Source: Deltaproteobacteria bacterium (GTDB lineage Bacteria; Desulfobacterota; Dissulfuribacteria; Dissulfuribacterales; QOAL01). From it: DNA of 43,465 nucleotides. Position 1 is the stretch's first letter. Every line of letters starts with the position of its first letter. A program made the translations under genes and the position numbers. Of the stretch, positions 33,788-43,465 are shown piece by piece. The stretch is from contig JALWNK010000042.1 in NCBI GenBank assembly GCA_026995935.1, positions 1 to 43,465 on the forward strand. Reading direction: 5' to 3'. The notes beneath the pieces are model-generated. The model was given only the letters and a program-made list of their open reading frames with translations. It had not been told where the DNA came from and made no database searches.

Positions 33788-34714
33788 TTAAGGATTTGAA
33801 GGCCCTTCCTTCCACATGGCATTCATATATGGCCACTGCCACCACTGGCATGGGTTTTTCTTGATTTCCTTTTCAAGCTTACTGGCGGCAAGCTCCAGGC
33901 CCTCTTCCCCTATTGCAGGAATCTGTTCTATATTCACTTGAACCCTCCAGCCCGCCCGTGGCCTGACAGCGGCAAAGACAAGGGGTGCCCCGGTCCTTTT
34001 TGATATCCTGGCAATGCCCTGGGGAAGTTTTAGCATCCCTCCCAGAAAAGGGACATTATAAAACCTTTTCAGGGTCTCGGGGTAGGCATCCATTAGAATC
34101 ACCATGATCTTGCCCCTTTCAAGGGCCCTGTAGATGTGTCTTGGACTGTCCTTCAAGGTGAGGCCAGGCCCTCCGGTTACCCGGTAATATTTTTTGAGTT
34201 TCCGTTTAAGGTATATCCTGTCTATCCAGTCGAGATAGGGGTTGTCTTTGTCAACGGACTGGCTGAGTATTCCGTTTTTTATCCCCATGTGGCCAAGGGC
34301 GTAGGCTGTCATGTTAAGCCTTGAGTAGTGGGCCGTAACTATTATCAGCCCCTTTTTTTCTTGAAGTGCGTCAAAAATGTGCTCTGTTCCATTTACAGTC
34401 GCAAGCCTCTTCATCTGCTTTGGAGCAAGACGCGGCACCAGCACTGAGTCAAGGGCCTCCCTGGAAAGCATCTCAAGGTGTCTTCTTACGCAGGCATCCA
34501 GGTTTTCTATTTTTAGACCCTCTCCCGCCTGGGCGCACCTTTTAAGGCCCATTTTCCACTGGTCCATGTATTCCTTCTGAAAGGCCCTGTCCATGGGAGA
34601 AAAAAGGAGGCAGAGCCTGTAGGCAAGCCCCAAGGGAAAAAAGGAGAGGGCAGGGTAGATGAAAAAGAGTTTTAAGGCCTTTAGCGGTTTCCCAAGCATC
34701 CCTTTAACTGCCAA
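33788..34714 (-). CDS. LpxL/HtrB-family acyltransferase-like protein with altered active-site motif
   Basis: A 308-residue protein with the overall pattern of lysophospholipid/lipid A late acyltransferases. It has a single N-terminal hydrophobic segment, [17 protein letters not shown] (~115-131), [12 protein letters not shown]-like and [28 protein letters not shown] (~225-250). The family catalytic HX4(D/E) is here H-YSRL-N: the acid is replaced by Asn (codon AAC). The protein may therefore be inactive as an acyltransferase, use another acid, or belong to a divergent subfamily. It overlaps the hexapeptide transferase gene by 11 bases and precedes the methyltransferase, in the O-antigen operon. 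Confidence 0.78.
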
Positions 34715-35339
34715 GGCCCCTTATGGCCCCCTTTATCCTTTTAAGAAGGCGCAAGAAAACGGAAGGCTTGGGCCTAAAACCTTCCCTCCACTTTATTACC
34801 CGGGCAGGGTTTCCTGCCACCACTGAAAAGGCAGGAACATCCTTTGTCACAACGCTTGCAGCTCCCACAACAGCCCCTTTTCCTACGGTTACACCTTCAA
34901 GAATTGTGGCCCCTGCCCCTATCCAGGCGCCTTTTTCAACCGTAACGGTTCCGTAGGTAAGGCCGTGTTGGTAGATGGAAACCGGTTCGTGGTCGTACTC
35001 ATGGCCTGCGCTAAGTAGCTTGGCACCTGGCCCGATGAGCACCTCGTCTTCTATTTGCAGCCCGCCTTCTCCGGAAAGGTAGCATCCAACGTTTACTATG
35101 ATTCTTGAGCCCATGTGTATAAAGGCCCCCTTGTTGGTGCGCATATCCCCTGTAACAAGGCGTACGTGGTCAAGAAGTATCACGTCATCTCCGAGGACTA
35201 TCCTTCCCCGTTCCTTGTGGGAAAGATCCGTGTACACGGTAACCGTGTCAGATATCCTGCAGCCTGTTCCAACCTTGTCTATGCCAGGGGGGATATTTTC
35301 AGGTACTACCGGGTCTGGAATGCCTATTATGTCAGCCAT
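34704..35339 (-). CDS. Hexapeptide-repeat acyltransferase (left-handed beta-helix)
   Basis: A 211-residue protein with hexapeptide repeats throughout (for example [46 protein letters not shown] near the C terminus) and a HEYDHEP loop containing the catalytic histidine region (~112-117). It belongs to the LbH O-acetyltransferase family (maltose/galactoside acetyltransferase and WbbJ-like) and would acetylate a sugar of the polysaccharide, using acetyl-CoA. It lies four bases downstream of wzt and overlaps the LpxL-like gene. Confidence 0.88.
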
Positions 35340-35343
35340 CTCC

Positions 35344-36564
35344 TTATTGTTTTTCTATTATCCACCTGTGGGGAATATAAATGAGGCACATCTCCTTTGG
35401 GTCAGCCCTTACGGTAAAGGTCAGGATGCCTTCTGCCATGTCAAATACCTGGATGGCATGCTCGTCAAGGAGGTAAACATACCATTTATAGAGGCCAGAA
35501 AGAAGTGGAAGTTCAGGGATTTCAAGGCTTATGGTGGCGTTTTTACACCCTTTTATGGGAGCAATCTCATCCGCCTTTGTTGACGAAAAAAATATCTTGA
35601 GACCATCATCCCTTTCAAGGACCAGGGCAACATGAAATATTGCGTGAGCATCAAGGACCTTGGCCTTTATCTCCAAAAACATCCTTTCATGGGACTGAAA
35701 TTTAAGGGATTCCTGGCCCTTTGCGTTTAGCAGGCGAATCTCTTCAAGCTTTACCGGGGCCGAATCTCCCCCAGTCTGTCTCTGCTCTTCCTGTGTGGGG
35801 ATATTTATTGGAAGCTCATCCTCTTCAAGGCCATTTTTCCTCCGCTGGTACTGTTCGTAGGCGGCTACCACGTTTTCCGTCTCCCCAAAGGCCTCAATTT
35901 TTCCGTCCTTTAGCCAGATGGCCCGCTGGCAAAGGTTTCTTATCTGGTACATGTTATGGGAGCAAAAGAGTATGGTCTTGCCGGCCTTCCTGAAGGACAT
36001 GATCCTGTCGAGGCTCTTTTTCTGAAAGTGTATGTCCCCTACGGATAGAAATTCATCCACCAGGAGAACGTCCGGGTCCGTGCAGGTGGCAACTGCAAAT
36101 GCAAGGCGCACAAACATGCCGGATGAATAGGTCTTTACGGGTCTATCGAGAAAAAGGGGGTCAAGCTCTGAAAACTCGACGATCTCAGGGTATATGGCTT
36201 CCACTTCCCTTTTGCCAAGGCCAAGGATGGCCGCCTGAAGGTACACGTTTTCCCTTCCTGAAAGCTCTGGATGAAAGCTAGAGCCAAGCTCAAGAAGGGC
36301 TGAAACCCTTCCTTTCAGTTTGCACTGTCCAGATGTTGGCCTGAGCGTGCCTGCAAGAATCTTCAAAAGCGTGCTTTTCCCTGCCCCGTTTTCACCTATG
36401 AGCCCAAAGGTCTCTGCCTCCTTTACATTAAAAGAGATGTTGTTAAGGGCCTCAAAATCCACGTGAAAGGGCCGCCTCAGTATGATCTCCTTAAGTCTGT
36501 CCGCAGGCCGCTTGTATAGCCTGTAGACCTTTTTAAGCCTTTCTACTTCAATTGGGTATTCCAC
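35344..36564 (-). CDS. wzt: O-antigen ABC exporter ATPase with C-terminal glycan-binding domain
   Basis: A 406-residue ATPase. The nucleotide-binding domain has Walker [15 protein letters not shown] (~56-70), the signature as [12 protein letters not shown] (~146), Walker [13 protein letters not shown] and H-loop FCSHNM. After ~265 a Wzt_C-type beta-sandwich follows ([29 protein letters not shown] onward), which recognises the modified end of the finished glycan in ABC-dependent O-antigen systems. With the Wzm permease upstream it forms the exporter. The C-terminal domain implies that chain-end modification (by the methyltransferase or acetyltransferase nearby) licenses export. Confidence 0.94.
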
Positions 36565-36582
36565 AACTCTTGATCAAGTGTC

Positions 36583-37371
36583 TTACAGTTCGTCTGTGAT
36601 GCCAGGCTTTAAAAGGGAAAACACTGTTGAGCCTACAAGAAAAATTATCACCGATAATATAATCGATACTGCCAAATCCTTTAAGTTTACATGGCCGCCT
36701 ATGAACATCTTTTGATAACATCTTGTAAGCCATGTCAAGGGATTGCAAAGGAGTATCCACTTGAACCTGGCAGGCACCATGGATTCCGGATAGAGGATGG
36801 GTGTTACGTAGAACCAGAGCTGGAGTCCCACGTTTATTATCTGGACAAAGTCTCTGTAAAGGGCGCAAAGCGCGGCAAAGAGGTAGCCAAAGCCCGCAGT
36901 CATTACCACTTGTGCCAAAAGTACTGCTGGCAGATACAAAAGGCCCGCAGCCTTTAGGCACTTAAATTTCCAAAGAAGACCAATATAAATGATGGTTCCA
37001 AAGATCTGGGGCAAAAGAGAGGTAAATACCGGTACTGCAGGGAGTATTTCCAGGGGAAACACAGTCTGCTTGAGAAGGGCAGACTGGCTTATAAGGGAAT
37101 TTGCAGAAAGGTTCAGTGCCTCGGAAATACTTATCCACGGCAGAAGGCCTGCCAAGAGGTAAAAGAAGTAGCCTGCGGTTGTAGGAAGCTCTGGAATCTT
37201 GACCTTTAGTACCAGTGCAAAAAAGACATAGAAGATGGCAATGGTGGCTATTGGAAGGATAAGGGTCCAGACAAGGCCAATTACCGAGCCTGCATACCTG
37301 GCCTTGATGTCTCTTTTTACCCACAGGGCAAGAAGAAAACGGTTTTTTATCAAAATACGCAGAACATTCAT
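36583..37371 (-). CDS. wzm: O-antigen ABC exporter permease
   Basis: A 262-residue ABC-2 type permease with about six TM segments; NRFLLALWVKRDIKARYAGSVIGLVWTLILPI at the N terminus is characteristic of Wzm/TagG-type proteins. Other marks are LLAGLLPWISISEALNLSANSLI and the re-entrant-type ILYPESMVPARFKWILLCNPL. It moves undecaprenyl-linked polysaccharide across the inner membrane together with Wzt, encoded 18 bases downstream. It is the first gene of the minus-strand polysaccharide operon. Its start (37371) lies in a 118-base gap that also holds the terminator of the upstream unit; no clear promoter was picked out. Confidence 0.93.
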   Translation of the reverse strand: MNVLRILIKNRFLLALWVKRDIKARYAGSVIGLVWTLILPIATIAIFYVFFALVLKVKIPELPTTAGYFFYLLAGLLPWISISEALNLSANSLISQSALLKQTVFPLEILPAVPVFTSLLPQIFGTIIYIGLLWKFKCLKAAGLLYLPAVLLAQVVMTAGFGYLFAALCALYRDFVQIINVGLQLWFYVTPILYPESMVPARFKWILLCNPLTWLTRCYQKMFIGGHVNLKDLAVSIILSVIIFLVGSTVFSLLKPGITDEL

Positions 37372-37409
37372 ACCGTCAGAACCAGAATAACAGTCTAATT
37401 ACCAATAAA

Positions 37410-37452
37410 AATTAAAAAAAAATAAAAAAAGCGGGAGGTTTAAACCCCCCGC
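37410..37452 (-). terminator. Strong Rho-independent terminator after the 37490-38395 gene
   Basis: On the minus strand an 8-bp GC-rich stem (arms 37431-37438 and 37445-37452, one mismatch) with a 6-base loop is followed by a long T-rich tract (complement of the A run at 37410-37430). It separates the exported-protein unit from wzm. Confidence 0.88.
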
Positions 37453-37489
37453 TTCTACTAGTTCAATTGGGCTTTATTATACTAATGAA

Positions 37490-38395
37490 TTAGTATCCAG
37501 CGCCTGTACAACCACAACCTGGCTGGCTAGCCTGACGTTCTTCTCCGTTACATTCAGCAGCCAACAGTGTCTGCTGTGCACCGAAGAGTGTGCTGCTGAT
37601 GTAGGAGTATGCCATTCCGTCTATTGAGCTTGGAGTGGCAGGGAACGTCCACTGTATGAAGCCGTCTATATAGTCAAGAGGCATACCAGGAATGTTGCAA
37701 GGTATGATCTTATTTAACTCTAGAGGCATGTTGATATTTACAGACTTTGATTCTTCCTCATCGTTGTAAACGAGAACAGTCTGTGCATTAGCTGGATCTG
37801 TAAGCCATACAACTACGGTTGTAGCAGCGTTATATGTTGGGTCTATCCAGTAACGCATATCAACAGTGGTGCCACCGCGGATACCATAAGTAAGTTGATA
37901 AAGGGTGCTTGCTGTCATGGCCCTTGGATCGAAGCCTGCCTGGAAATCATTTATACTCAGGGGTACAACAGGAATGAATATGGCATCCTTCCTTGCTGTA
38001 TCAACCAGAAACGCATTGGCACTGATTGTCATATTCCGATTGTTGGGATCGGCAACGAATACCAGGTAGCCATCTTTGTCGTTGAGCCCTCTACCGGAGT
38101 TGGCCTTCCAGGAAAATCCATAAAGGTCATCGTCGGTACAGGTAAATGTTCCGTCTGTTACGTGCGTAGAATTAGTAGCAAAGAAAGTCCAGTAAACGGT
38201 TCCTGAAGCGGTTGCATTATGATCTGTACAGTTGAATTCACAAAGGATACCAACCACTGTATCAACAGTGCTTCCGTTGTGGTAGACGGAAGGTACAAGT
38301 GCACCCTTTTCATAAATGCCTAGTGTTACTGCCTGTGCCTGCACTGCCAGCAGTATCAGGCCCATAAATGCAAGAAATCCTGTTAACTTTCTCAT
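37490..38395 (-). CDS. Exported protein of unknown function, cysteine-rich C-terminus
   Basis: I do not recognise this 301-residue protein. It has a clear Sec signal peptide (MRKLTGFLAFMGLILLAVQAQA). The rest appears beta-rich and low in charge, with many Asn/Thr/Ser residues and several N-X-S/T sequons (HNGS, FNCT, HNAT, TNST, RNMT). The end is ECNGEERQASQPGCGCTGAGY, with paired cysteines and no PEP-CTERM or LPXTG signal. AGGAGAGAAATT gives an excellent ribosome site, and a strong terminator follows, which suggests high expression and a structural surface role (inference). It is the last gene of the minus-strand exported-protein unit. Confidence 0.8.
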   Translation of the reverse strand: MRKLTGFLAFMGLILLAVQAQAVTLGIYEKGALVPSVYHNGSTVDTVVGILCEFNCTDHNATASGTVYWTFFATNSTHVTDGTFTCTDDDLYGFSWKANSGRGLNDKDGYLVFVADPNNRNMTISANAFLVDTARKDAIFIPVVPLSINDFQAGFDPRAMTASTLYQLTYGIRGGTTVDMRYWIDPTYNAATTVVVWLTDPANAQTVLVYNDEEESKSVNINMPLELNKIIPCNIPGMPLDYIDGFIQWTFPATPSSIDGMAYSYISSTLFGAQQTLLAAECNGEERQASQPGCGCTGAGY

Positions 38396-38480
38396 AATTT
38401 CTCTCCTTTTCTGTTTTTGATTTTTGAAAACTCCCTTAGATGTTACTCTTACGCCTAAATTTTATTTACCTCCCTTTCCA

Positions 38481-38948
38481 TCACCTCCTTTCCTTTAGTG
38501 TTTTTTTATGCCCTGTTTCTGAACCATTTTTTTCTGGTACATGATACCATTCAGATCCGATTTTTTTCCACTTATCCTTCACTTCTGATGGAAAAACATG
38601 CTTGCTACCGAGCGCTGGAATGAAATATTTTATGTCTACCGTGACAGTAGCATTATCGTCACTGATGTTAATGTCCTTGATTTTTACTTCCTTGAATACC
38701 AACGTCCCTGTTCGCGTATATACACTTATTGGGACCTTTTCTCTGTAGTCAGGCTCTTCTAATTGATAGCAGGTAATCATGTCCCCTGTCAACTTTGAAT
38801 TCCAGTATTTTTTGGCCCTTTCCCTCAATATCTTGCTGTCGTCCTGACCGAACAACCAACCATACGAAACGCCTCTACCCATTAGAAGGATAAGCACTGC
38901 CAGTGTAACGGCCAGCCTGCCGTGTTTACTTCTCAGTTTACTTCTCAT
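38481..38948 (-). CDS. Small exported protein of unknown function
   Basis: A 155-residue protein with a basic N terminus and a hydrophobic segment (LAVTLAVLILLMGRGVSYGW, ~12-31) that may be a signal peptide or anchor. The mature part (ILRERAKKYWNSKLTGDMITCYQLEEPDYREKV, then alternating strands) has an NTF2-like or cystatin-like size and pattern, but I cannot name a family. It overlaps the upstream gene by 11 bases, the ATG lying inside the last codons of that gene, so the two are translationally coupled. It is 85 bases ahead of the gene at 37490-38395. Confidence 0.72.
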   Translation of the reverse strand: MRSKLRSKHGRLAVTLAVLILLMGRGVSYGWLFGQDDSKILRERAKKYWNSKLTGDMITCYQLEEPDYREKVPISVYTRTGTLVFKEVKIKDINISDDNATVTVDIKYFIPALGSKHVFPSEVKDKWKKIGSEWYHVPEKNGSETGHKKTLKERR

Positions 38949-39912
38949 TTTCAGCCTCAGCTTCCCTTTTGGCGTCTATATCTTCCTGTGTGAGCAGCAA
39001 GGGATAATCCTGCCATAGAATGCCCTCTTTTCTTTGACTCAAGAGTATGTTGTATATCGTGTAATTCTGGACAAAAGGAAACGACTCGATAAAAAGGGTC
39101 CACTCGTCTTTTGGCCGTCTGAAGCAGTACTGTCCGCTTCCAAGTGTTTTGGCCAGGAGTGTGCCATTATCGTCGGTCATAAGCACATCTTCAAGGCCCT
39201 CCCCTGGATCGTACAGGTTGTTGTTGTTGATGTCGTAATAGACGTGTCCACATTGAATCCATCTTGGATTGGGCCCCTGTGGCCTTGCAAGGATTAAGAC
39301 AAGCATGTATATGTTGGCTTGCTGCGTGTCGGTCAGCTTTGCAACGCCTCCACAGTATCCAACACCCATTTCCACATACTGGTTATCAAAAAAGGCCTGC
39401 CTATTGTTTCTCGAAAGTCCATTATCAATGGAACGACTAATATTCTTAAACAGGAGATCGGCGCCCTGCATTGGGTCTATATATTCTCTCATTATTACCC
39501 CGGAACTCTCAACGTGAAGGCTTTCAGGGATGTAGCCCTTGGCCTCAAGGGCAAGTCTAGTGTTATTTGCGCCTAAGGCATCCAAGGTTCCTGAAATGGC
39601 ACTGTCGCAAAGTGTTTGAGCCACTGCGTCCAGTGTATCGTTTTCCAAAAGAGGCAGTATGTCGGTATAGGCCTCGGCGATGGTGCCATTTGTGCTAAAT
39701 ATCTGTTGGTCGTCAGATGTTTTTAAGTCAAAAGGATGCGATCTAAGCCTCAATAGGGAGGCCTTAATAAATTGGCGTGCCTGGGCTATCTGATCCTTTT
39801 CTCTGTTTTTAGAATTGGAATTGGCCTGTGGGGCCAGACTATTGTCTGCAAAAGCCACACCTTGAAAGGCCAATAAATATAAAAAAACTGTGAGAAGAAG
39901 TTTAGTACGCAT
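38938..39912 (-). CDS. Exported protein with SdrD-B/dockerin-like calcium-binding segment
   Basis: The real start is probably ATG at 39912, which gives a normal signal peptide (MRTKLLLTVFLYLLAFQGVAFA); a longer frame to 40230 overlaps the neighbouring gene with unlikely sequence. The mature ~300 residues begin with a low-complexity Gln/Asn segment, then helical regions. Near the end (~225-270) is YYDINNNNLYDPGEGLEDVLMTDDNGT...GQYCF, which resembles Cna-B/SdrD-B domains with their DxNxNxxxDxxE-type calcium loop. No anchor is visible, so it may be periplasmic or secreted. Together with the small protein downstream it forms an overlapping pair. The family is not recognised beyond this segment. 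Confidence 0.72.
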   Translation of the reverse strand: MRTKLLLTVFLYLLAFQGVAFADNSLAPQANSNSKNREKDQIAQARQFIKASLLRLRSHPFDLKTSDDQQIFSTNGTIAEAYTDILPLLENDTLDAVAQTLCDSAISGTLDALGANNTRLALEAKGYIPESLHVESSGVIMREYIDPMQGADLLFKNISRSIDNGLSRNNRQAFFDNQYVEMGVGYCGGVAKLTDTQQANIYMLVLILARPQGPNPRWIQCGHVYYDINNNNLYDPGEGLEDVLMTDDNGTLLAKTLGSGQYCFRRPKDEWTLFIESFPFVQNYTIYNILLSQRKEGILWQDYPLLLTQEDIDAKREAEAENEK

Positions 39913-40069
39913 CAAGTATCTTATCGCAAATTGGATGCCAATACAGCATGAGTTTTTTTTGGAGAATGCATGGAACGGCTGCTGTTTTTTTGGGTAAGAA
40001 ATATGATTCAAAACCGGGCCTGGCCAATTTTGTGCACGGCTGTTTATTATTGACCATGTATCTAAGAGG

Positions 40070-41260
40070 TTAAAAAGGCCCGAATAATAGGCCGATTGTT
40101 GAGCCCGCATTGTTGGCAAAAAGGAGATCAATGGCCCCGTCGCCATCAATGTCCACGAAGGAAAAGTCCCTAGGAAGGCTGCCAGCAGGTTTTTGGGCAA
40201 GTTGCCAGCCATTGGCATTCCTTTTTGCAATGAAGAGTTTCATTTCCTCTCCAAGGGCAAGCATTGCCGGGTGTCCTGGCCCCTTTCCCATGGCTGCAAG
40301 ACCGCTAAATCCCCAGGAAGGGGCTGGTATTTTGTCTGTGTACTGGATTCCGCCTTTACAGTCCCCGTAAAAGATCATGCACGCCTTGCCTACCTCTAAG
40401 GATACAGCGGCATCAACGCATCCGTCACCGTTGAGGTCGGCAAGTTTTACGTATTCGGGGCCGTCTTTTACCATTCCACGCGGTGTCCCAGGTTTTTTAA
40501 TATTAACCTTCTTGAATCGTCTGTGTCCCATGTTTATGGCTGCAACTACAGAGCCGTTTCTTTTCTCCACCCAGAAGATATCCGTCTGTCCGTCGCCGTT
40601 CCAGTCGCCTAGTTCTACGTTTTCTGTTAGGGGACGGGCCTTTATCTTTTGGCCGGTGAATTGGAAAAAGCCCTTTCCTCCCCATAGTACAAGCACGCTG
40701 TTTCCCTGGTGCCCTGCAAGTACTATATCCTTTCGCCCGTCACCATCTATGTCACCGCACTGTATGCTTTTTGCGTTTAGCCAAACCTTGAAAGATGCCT
40801 TCTTGATAAACCCATCTCCACTATTCTCCCAGTACTGTACCTGAAATATTCCCTCGCAGGCAAGTAACAGGTCAGGTCTTCCGTCATGGTTCCAGTCAGT
40901 TACAGTAATCTTCCCGGGATGATAACCAACCTGTTCCTTGCCATATACAGGCCCCGTCTTGAAGGTTCTGTTGGGGCCGCCCCAAAAGATTTTGAGCTGG
41001 CTCTTTCCATGGCTCACAACAGCTATATCCTTATAGCCATCGCCATTGAAATCTACTGCTACAGGCGACAATGGGCAGTCCCCTGATTCCAGAGTGATAT
41101 ATGGGCTGCTTTGAGCTTTTGGGGCCACTGATTTTGCCTTAAGCCCGCTGGATTTGTCGTGGCTGGCATTCATGTGTGTTGAACATCCAGATAAAACCCA
41201 GATTATTGCAATAAATACAGCCAAAAACGTCAAGCCAGGTCTTAATTTTTTTCTATTCAT
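40070..41260 (-). CDS. FG-GAP/VCBS-repeat lipoprotein
   Basis: About 396 residues. The signal peptide ends in a lipobox (VLSGCS), so the mature protein should be lipidated and membrane-anchored. Five or more FG-GAP/VCBS repeats follow with Asp-rich calcium loops: DFNGDGYKDIAVV, DWNHDGRPDLLLA, DIDGDGRKDIVLA, DWNGDGQTDIFWV, DLNGDGCVDAAVS and DIDGDGAIDLLFA. Together they would make a beta-propeller with a Ca ion per blade, typical of integrin-like adhesion or interaction proteins. ATG at 41260 with GAGG upstream is preferred to a GTG at 41281. It lies 157 bases upstream of the coupled pair ending at 38481. Confidence 0.88.
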   Translation of the reverse strand: MNRKKLRPGLTFLAVFIAIIWVLSGCSTHMNASHDKSSGLKAKSVAPKAQSSPYITLESGDCPLSPVAVDFNGDGYKDIAVVSHGKSQLKIFWGGPNRTFKTGPVYGKEQVGYHPGKITVTDWNHDGRPDLLLACEGIFQVQYWENSGDGFIKKASFKVWLNAKSIQCGDIDGDGRKDIVLAGHQGNSVLVLWGGKGFFQFTGQKIKARPLTENVELGDWNGDGQTDIFWVEKRNGSVVAAINMGHRRFKKVNIKKPGTPRGMVKDGPEYVKLADLNGDGCVDAAVSLEVGKACMIFYGDCKGGIQYTDKIPAPSWGFSGLAAMGKGPGHPAMLALGEEMKLFIAKRNANGWQLAQKPAGSLPRDFSFVDIDGDGAIDLLFANNAGSTIGLLFGPF

Positions 41261-41337
41261 TAGGAGCCTCTTTTTTAGCACTTTTGCTATTTAAACATGG
41301 ATAGTAAAACAGCATAGGATGATTGGAAAGGGTGCAA

Positions 41338-41907
41338 CTACAGGCCGGCGATTTTTTGGGCAGCCATGATGCAGACGATTCTATCCTCGTTTTTCAGGTC
41401 TCTGCTTTTTAAAAGGGCCTTTTGGTATCTTTTGCAGCTTCCGGCCTCTTGGGCTAGGCCTGATTTGTCAAGAACCTCTGCCAGGCCTTCAAAGGCACTT
41501 GAAAGGTAGGGATGATAATGGAGGGCCTTCAACAACATTTTGGCAGATTCAGGGTAGTTGAGGTTGAGGTTTTCCACGGTAGCCGCCTGGGTGTATCCGT
41601 TAAAAATCATGGGCCAATATCCCAATGGCCTCAGAAAGGCCTGTTTTTCAGCAAAAAGTATTGGAATGGCCGCTTGAACTATGGCGTGTTTTGCTTCGTA
41701 AGCCCTTGTATGGATAATGGCATTTTTCAAGACTCCCACCAGTATGCCAAGCTTGTTGCAGTGATAGTTTTTTTCCATGTCTTGCACGAAAAAATAAGAT
41801 GAAAGAATTAACATGGTAAAAGAAAAGCTAACAATCAAGACGCTGCTAATCTTTAGTTTATTCATTTCAGCAGACCATTTCTTCAAACTCTGACTTTTTA
41901 TTGTCAT
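41338..41907 (-). CDS. Single-pass membrane protein with TPR-like tail, unknown function
   Basis: The start is uncertain: ATG at 41907 is used here; ATGs at 41973 and 41865 are also in frame and none has an ideal ribosome site. The product has one TM helix near its N terminus (ISSVLIVSFSFTMLILSSYFFVQ) and an extracytoplasmic helical region. In that region NLNYPESAKMLLKALHYHPYLSSAFEGLAEVLDKSGLAQEAGSCKRYQKALL resembles a pair of TPR units. The family is unknown. It is the first gene of the minus-strand exported-protein cluster and is divergent from the GEVED gene. TPR membrane proteins of this size often help assemble surface structures (inference). Confidence 0.65.
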   Translation of the reverse strand: MTIKSQSLKKWSAEMNKLKISSVLIVSFSFTMLILSSYFFVQDMEKNYHCNKLGILVGVLKNAIIHTRAYEAKHAIVQAAIPILFAEKQAFLRPLGYWPMIFNGYTQAATVENLNLNYPESAKMLLKALHYHPYLSSAFEGLAEVLDKSGLAQEAGSCKRYQKALLKSRDLKNEDRIVCIMAAQKIAGL

Positions 41908-41973
41908 CCCATAATCTATCTTCTCCTTTTCTTTTTTACAAGCTTCATGTCCTGGCCTGTGGAGCATAATCAT

Positions 41974-42329: not shown

Positions 42330-43465
42330 ATGGCCAAATTTTTTCCTGTTATTTCAATAAAAAAGGGTTTCATAAGCACCCTTTATAGAGGAGGCCATCT
42401 CAGTAAAAAGATTTTTAATTCACCAAAAAATATAAAATTATTTACAATGGCAGTCCTTGTCTTTTTGGCTGGTAGTATGGGCATAACAGAGGCAGCCCTT
42501 GCTGCCAAGGTAACACTTTCATGGCAGCGGAACCAGGAGCCTGATATTGCAGGTTACAAGATATATTATGGCACTAAGTCCCATGCCTATACGAATTCCC
42601 TTACCATTAATGATACTGCCAAAACGCCTATCCAAATATCCCATGTCGTAACGGGTCTGTCCGAAGGCAAAACCTACTATTTTGCAGTAAAGGCATTTGA
42701 TCTAGCCCATCAGTTTAGTGATTTTTCAAAAGAGGTATCTGTTCATATTCCTGTTTCAGGCGGAGGTTCTGGCAGTGGAGGAGGAACAGGTGGCGGAAGT
42801 GTAAATTACTGCAGTTCCCAAGGAGGGAGTCAGAAGTATGAGTGGATAAGCCGAGTACAGGTAGGAAGTTTTGTGAACAGTTCAGGAGCGACCGGGTATG
42901 GTAATTTCACATCCAAGACTATAAGCCTTTCAGCTGGGCAGAGTGTGGTATTGCGGCTTACACCAGGATTTTCGGGCAAGGCATACAATGAGTACTGGCG
43001 AGTATGGATAGACTACAACCGCGATGGAGACTTTAATGATGCAGGAGAGTTAGTGTATTCTGGGCATGGAACAGGGGCCATATCAGGAAGTTTCAAGGTT
43101 CCTGGTTCAGCCAGTGGTGTAGCGCGTATGCGCGTGTCCATGCAGTACAAGAGCTATCCATCCTCTTCCTGTGGAACAGTGAAATATGGTGAGGTAGAAG
43201 ACTATACGGTGTCATTTGGTAGTTCAGGAGGTTCTGGCAGTGGAGGAGGAACAGGTGGCGGAAGTGTAAATTACTGCAGTTCCCAAGGAGGGAGTCAGAA
43301 GTATGAGTGGATAAGCCGAGTACAGGTAGGAAGTTTTGTGAACAGTTCAGGAGCGACCGGGTATGGTAATTTCACATCCAAGACTATAAGCCTTTCAGCT
43401 GGGCAGAGTGTGGTTTTGCGGCTTACGCCAGGATTTTCGGGCAAGGCATACAATGAGTATTGGCG
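42330..43465 (+). CDS. FN3-GEVED repeat surface protein (3' end outside window)
   Basis: The frame is open from ATG 42330 to the window edge (378 codons). The N terminus has a long basic leader of ~40 residues before a hydrophobic core (MAVLVFLAGSMGITEAALAA), so it is either an extended signal peptide or the true start is the ATG at 42447; GGAGG at 42316-42320 favours 42330. Residues ~60-143 are a fibronectin type III-like domain (VTLSWQRNQEPDIAGYKIYYG...GLSEGKTYYFAVKAFD). A Gly/Ser linker follows, then a GEVED domain at ~155-297 (WIDYNRDGDFNDAGELVYSG... GEVEDYTV). A second linker-GEVED unit begins at 43227 and is cut by the edge. GEVED domains occur in large secreted adhesins and matrix proteins. 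It is probably exported, and regulated by sigma-54. Confidence 0.87.
   Translation, partial: MAKFFPVISIKKGFISTLYRGGHLSKKIFNSPKNIKLFTMAVLVFLAGSMGITEAALAAKVTLSWQRNQEPDIAGYKIYYGTKSHAYTNSLTINDTAKTPIQISHVVTGLSEGKTYYFAVKAFDLAHQFSDFSKEVSVHIPVSGGGSGSGGGTGGGSVNYCSSQGGSQKYEWISRVQVGSFVNSSGATGYGNFTSKTISLSAGQSVVLRLTPGFSGKAYNEYWRVWIDYNRDGDFNDAGELVYSGHGTGAISGSFKVPGSASGVARMRVSMQYKSYPSSSCGTVKYGEVEDYTVSFGSSGGSGSGGGTGGGSVNYCSSQGGSQKYEWISRVQVGSFVNSSGATGYGNFTSKTISLSAGQSVVLRLTPGFSGKAYNEYW
42762..43465 (+). repeat. Tandem repeat, 465-bp unit (GEVED domain plus Gly-Ser linker)
   Basis: Copy 1 spans 42762-43226 and copy 2 starts at 43227, running off the window after 239 bases. Over the shared 239 bases I count three differences (A/T, A/G and C/T), all at third codon positions and all synonymous, so the encoded residues are identical. 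The unit length is 155 codons exactly. Confidence 0.92.

Follow-up and report, generated by a model that had tools for sequence, protein, structure and literature searches.

What is encoded by a gene that runs off the end of a contig in the middle of a repeat, why are the copies of that repeat so alike, and what might an array of them do? The questions are posed by the last ORF of a 43,465-nucleotide stretch of deltaproteobacterial DNA (hereafter the window), which is the entire contig C42 of a 79-contig assembly (genome G000) and ends inside the second copy of a repeat. The ORF (42330–43465, forward strand) encodes a repetitive secreted protein of which 378 amino acids are visible; its 3′ end is open, cut by the contig end.

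A GEVED repeat cut by the contig end

Read by eye, the translation starts with a leader (42330–42506, forward strand) that has a Sec-type signal peptide, a hydrophobic stretch followed by ALA-A, and that holds an internal methionine at 42447 as an alternative start. A fibronectin type III (fn3) domain follows (PF00041; 42507–42701, forward strand, residues 60–124; E = 6.5e-7, 29.9 bits against a cut-off of 25), and this domain and a linker make up the region before the first repeat; NR2 was not among the Pfam matches, the presence of its model in the library being unconfirmed. Repeat unit 1 (42762–43226, forward strand; 465 bp, 155 amino acids) consists of a Gly/Ser-rich linker and a GEVED domain of ~137 amino acids (42807–43217, forward strand). 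With 68.5 bits against a gathering cut-off of 24.4 (PF20009, E = 9.3e-19), the domain is a clear member of its family, and it carries two invariant cysteines, a DxNxDG loop and, near its end, the GEVEDY motif (KYGEVEDYTVSF), whose G, both E and D are 97–100% conserved in 69 sequences. Unit 2 (43227–43465, forward strand) is truncated after its first 239 bp. The linkers between GEVED domains comprise ~18 Gly/Ser-rich residues. NCBIfam profiles gave only partial matches below cut-off on the window protein, and a sequence search of solved structures with this single protein returned matches to fn3 and the linker only. The contig end cuts a gene for a secreted protein of nearly identical, glycan-binding-like domain copies.

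A repeat search of the window found one family of 239 nt, a direct repeat with a spacing of 465 bp, in which 236 of 239 bases are identical between 42762–43000 and 43227–43465. This in-frame identity of 98.7% over 239 bp is far beyond chance. The left edge of the repeat lies at 42762, with no leftward extension. Only 1.5 copies are visible, so that 'tandem' here means one full unit and half a unit; Tandem Repeats Finder, with a longest period of 500 and fewer than two copies present, reported nothing in the window. The sequence-only reading had counted three differences, all synonymous, between protein repeats that it took to be identical. Codon comparison agreed on both points: the copies differ at exactly three third positions, all silent (copy 1/copy 2: GTA/GTT at 42950/43415, ACA/ACG at 42962/43427 and TAC/TAT at 42995/43460), and the 79 residues common to them are 100% identical. 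Of random single changes in the 239-bp region, 24% would be silent, which gives ~1% as the chance of three out of three. The first 188 bp are the same in both copies; all three differences fall in the last 51 bp, a clustering with little statistical weight (longest tract, codon-shuffle P = 0.06).

A false duplication or a strain chimaera made by the assembler could likewise put copy 2 at the contig terminus, with every difference in its last 51 bp. We consider such an artefact very improbable. Random errors would yield three silent differences only ~1% of the time, and the start and end of the contig share no 25-mers, which shows that they are not redundant and that copy 2 is not the overlap of a circular contig. 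Moreover, the independently assembled genome of a relative in the same genus, G001, has three GEVED copies within one contig, and the contigs of G000, G007, G011 and L030 (see below) all break inside GEVED arrays, which is what the assembly of near-identical repeats from short reads should produce.

The missing last copy and the arrays of relatives

DNA and protein searches of the G000 assembly found no repeat copies beyond the two. Among relatives fetched by protein was L030, a 3,040-bp contig (WFZT01000006.1) binned in a WOR-3 MAG, at one end of which 283 bp match copy 1 at 95%. Its GEVED copy closes with VSFK and a stop codon, followed by a hairpin and a T run (a terminator), and the last GEVED of G007 has the same VSFK-stop ending. 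At the three sites that distinguish copies 1 and 2, L030 carries the copy-1 bases, so its copy is not copy 2; the array therefore probably has at least three copies, if all of these come from one strain. Judged from these comparisons of sequence, L030 carries the missing last copy of the window gene, and its source is this species or one very close to it. The comparison of the G000 and G007 arrays across a species border gave a dS above 1, which makes L030 by far the closer of the two, at the least. With the protease genes of L030 and L066 differing at a dS of 0.27, L030 may represent a sister strain or sister species; part of the divergence would then not lie between paralogous copies.

Between copy 1 and its L030 counterpart, 13 codons differ, one of them with an amino-acid change (H to R); protein identity is 98.9%, dN 0.009 and dS 0.21. 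Without selection, the chance that at least 13 of 14 changes would be silent is ~1.6e-7. These values bear out the selection on the protein that had been proposed from the window, and the open frame at the contig end, with a separate last copy and its stop codon in L030, confirms that the array goes past the window. Differences confined to silent sites, as proposed, are what the 239 visible bases show, but the L030 copy, with its H to R change, departs from this. A recent duplication had also been proposed, and this is upheld only in part: about one silent site in five distinguishes copy 1 from the copy in L030, and some of this divergence perhaps arose between strains or sister species.

L030 (1–3040; WFZT01000006.1, WOR-3 MAG) and L027 (1–5871; JALVJU010000095.1, Marinilabiliaceae MAG) have genes nearly identical to those of deltaproteobacterial relatives of the window, and by this likeness both contigs look mis-binned. 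On the reverse complement of L030, intergenic stretches at 388–575 and 819–927 match G000 contigs C18 and C23; we rejected these contigs as the continuation of the array, as the matches look like old, decayed remnants of transposases or insertion sequences. Contigs C22 and C26 were rejected as well. They hold the G000 versions of genes that lie downstream of the array in G007 (CvpA side) and G001 (ftsZ side), with other neighbours and no GEVED end, which indicates a lack of conservation downstream. In L066 a Wzz gene precedes the protease gene, and nothing in G000 matches it.

A complete gene is found in G001 (L070:7133–8983, contig C165), where it is convergent with the adjoining ftsZ; the ftsZ of G000 has a different neighbour. 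It encodes 616 residues with fn3 and exactly three GEVED domains, the only Pfam domains above cut-off, and has no anchor domain, other modes of attachment being possible. The MAGs compared, which we take to come from deep-sea hydrothermal vents, provided one genome per species for the comparison of arrays. The three G001 repeats are 85–88% identical among themselves and at most 62% identical to the G000 repeats. In a repeat tree, all four arrays group by gene with the minimum of 3 changes, a number as low as which was reached in 0 of 200 shuffles. Between G001 repeats 2 and 3, dS is 0.06 in codons 1–80 and 0.93 in codons 81–136, with an identical tract of 127 bp (codon-shuffle P = 5e-5). Sharp-edged identical tracts of this kind, silent sites included, are seen in three arrays, those of G001, G014 and G011 (P = 0.01 to 5e-5), while the signal from the window copies is no more than suggestive (P = 0.06; 0.03 against L030). 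Such patchiness in the arrays of relatives is the signature of gene conversion or of unequal exchange, and recombination between the window copies, as in the gene conversion first proposed, is likely.

GEVED fold and the modules behind the fn3 leader

We know of no ligand for GEVED. An alignment of 69 GEVED domains, in which the two cysteines are invariant, was used to obtain an AlphaFold2 model (mean pLDDT 95.9), and the predicted fold is a beta-sandwich. The loop D-x-N-x-D/N-G-x-F and the Glu that follows resemble an EF-hand-like Ca loop, which suggests that this loop may bind Ca. The best solved match to the model was domain IV of Endo HS-alpha (PDB 9x1i; Z = 16.4, rmsd 2.4, 143 residues, 20% identity), with which GEVED also has a weak profile match (E = 1.5e-4). 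In this GH85 enzyme the domain is a single ancillary one, whereas here it is a repeated unit without an enzyme. Its authors proposed that domain IV recognises N-glycans; the known sugar-site residues are not conserved there (PMC12961652). The next folds, RhoGDI (the best of these) and the Wzt carbohydrate-binding domain, scored Z = 8–10; we rejected kinship as the meaning of the RhoGDI-like matches (Z ~10) and took them to reflect the common beta-sandwich.

The fn3 leader was sought in 46 genomes of the order and turned up in 20. Similar leaders are followed by GEVED in G000, G001 and G007; an AGA-YXIM galactose-binding-like module with PKD in G016 and, by sequence similarity, in G014; an H-type lectin (H_lectin) in G027 and, with more distant leaders, in G012 and G017; a weak CBM_4_9-like module, below cut-off, in G012, with G013 and G034 similar in sequence; and DUF4214 in G029. 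Near-identical intragenic duplicates were present in G027 (98.8% over 330 nt), G012 (92.5% over 429), G014 (85.7% over 496) and G016 (82% over 384). Seen against these genes, the window repeats are one case of a family trait. In the fn3 and H-type lectin array of G027 (L104:1327–3153, contig C104), the second copy matches the first at 98.8–100%, with a run of N inside.

The structural match of the GEVED model, together with the lectin and galactose-binding-like modules that take the GEVED slot in relatives, suggests by analogy that GEVED binds glycans; that in some relatives DUF4214 or PKD, rather than a lectin, occupies this slot counts against it. Our favoured reading, held with moderate confidence, is that the gene encodes a secreted multidomain protein whose GEVED copies are homogenised by recombination under purifying selection, and that this protein is most likely a multivalent binder of surface or matrix glycans. 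It would comprise a signal peptide, one fn3 and a series of units, each a flexible Gly/Ser linker with GEVED, that number two at the least and probably three or more; no anchor would follow the last of them. Intragenic recombination, by gene conversion or unequal exchange, would keep the copies alike and could change their number, while purifying selection would preserve the protein sequence and silent sites would drift between exchanges. Each GEVED would be a glycan-binding beta-sandwich, perhaps stabilised by Ca, and weak binding at single sites would add up across identical copies. The protein may be released outside the cell, the G000 genome having a gene above cut-off for the type II secretin GspD.

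Alternatively, the GEVED units could be a spacer whose number sets the reach of an N-terminal head, with recombination altering the length, as in the Periscope Proteins, which are surface proteins of variable length. The window protein resembles these in its long, near-identical tandem domains and likely recombination: its 155-aa repeats, at 99–100% identity (100% over 79 residues; 98.9% to L030), are longer than 50 residues and at least 80% identical, as required of such repeats, most of which are Ig-like beta-sandwiches (PMC8201768), the fold type predicted for GEVED. GEVED was also classed as a stalk domain in the paper that defined it, which describes it as a partner retained in fibrillar adhesins and of unclear role (PMC10952558). 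What speaks against Periscope-like reach is that the protein stops directly after its last GEVED, with no anchor there in G001, G007 or L030, and that its N-terminal part is a lone fn3 rather than a recognised binding head. The ~18-residue Gly/Ser-rich linkers, moreover, suggest beads on a string and not a rod. We regard a plain stalk as doubtful, if by some way the most serious competitor, and prefer the multivalent glycan binder mainly because most of the swapped modules are of glycan-binding types.

Neighbouring genes and related systems

Upstream of the array gene, a block on the reverse strand (33788–41973) encodes an acyltransferase, an acetyltransferase, a Wzt/Wzm-type exporter, secreted proteins (two of them without a Pfam match), an FG-GAP repeat lipoprotein (40070–41281, reverse strand), which the neighbourhood comparison places in a conserved setting, and a 211-aa membrane protein (41338–41973, reverse strand). 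The last of these is the divergent neighbour of the array gene and has no Pfam match; in G007 and G001, too, the fn3 gene has a relative of it as a neighbour. The block is collinear in G007, at 56–83% identity. A setting among Wzm/Wzt-type export genes favours the glycan-binding reading.

In L030, the array gene and a reprolysin-like metalloprotease gene, the product of which has its own GEVED, are convergent neighbours. It is conceivable that array and protease work together, the array docking or presenting the substrate that both recognise, and GEVED-bearing reprolysin-like proteases are also encoded in G004, G011 and G014, in the last ~20 kb from the fn3 gene. Yet no such protease was found beside the array in G001 or G007, nor anywhere in the G000 assembly, and common domains need not mean common substrates, which together make this partnership improbable.

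GEVED (PF20009, IPR045474) was first named from streptococcal CshA and its relatives. In the window protein, unlike CshA-type proteins, GEVED itself is the tandem unit behind fn3, and no CshA_NR2, other stalk repeats or anchor were seen. Secreted metalloproteases that bear GEVED (reprolysin-like M12 in relatives; the M4 protease EK4-1, PMC10178186) share the domain with it and sometimes repeat it, as in G004 and G014, which have three; a protease domain, by contrast, is found neither in the visible window protein nor in its complete G001 counterpart. The window gene is an unambiguous, if rather unremarkable, representative of a known type of repetitive secreted protein and no new kind of system.

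For the order as a whole, we tentatively propose a broader scheme, in our view rather unlikely, in which the conserved signal peptide and fn3 leader would be a fixed socket. Modules of glycan-binding type (GEVED, H-type lectin, galactose-binding-like and CBM-like) would be exchanged behind it between species and then duplicated and homogenised within each gene, giving an evolvable set of secreted lectins that are multivalent and linked to the surface-polysaccharide region. The case shows how short-read assemblies fail at arrays of identical domains, the very places at which surface and secreted proteins vary. For the family, a near-identical GEVED array and lectin-type modules in the same slot offer a concrete, easily tested hint that GEVED binds glycans.
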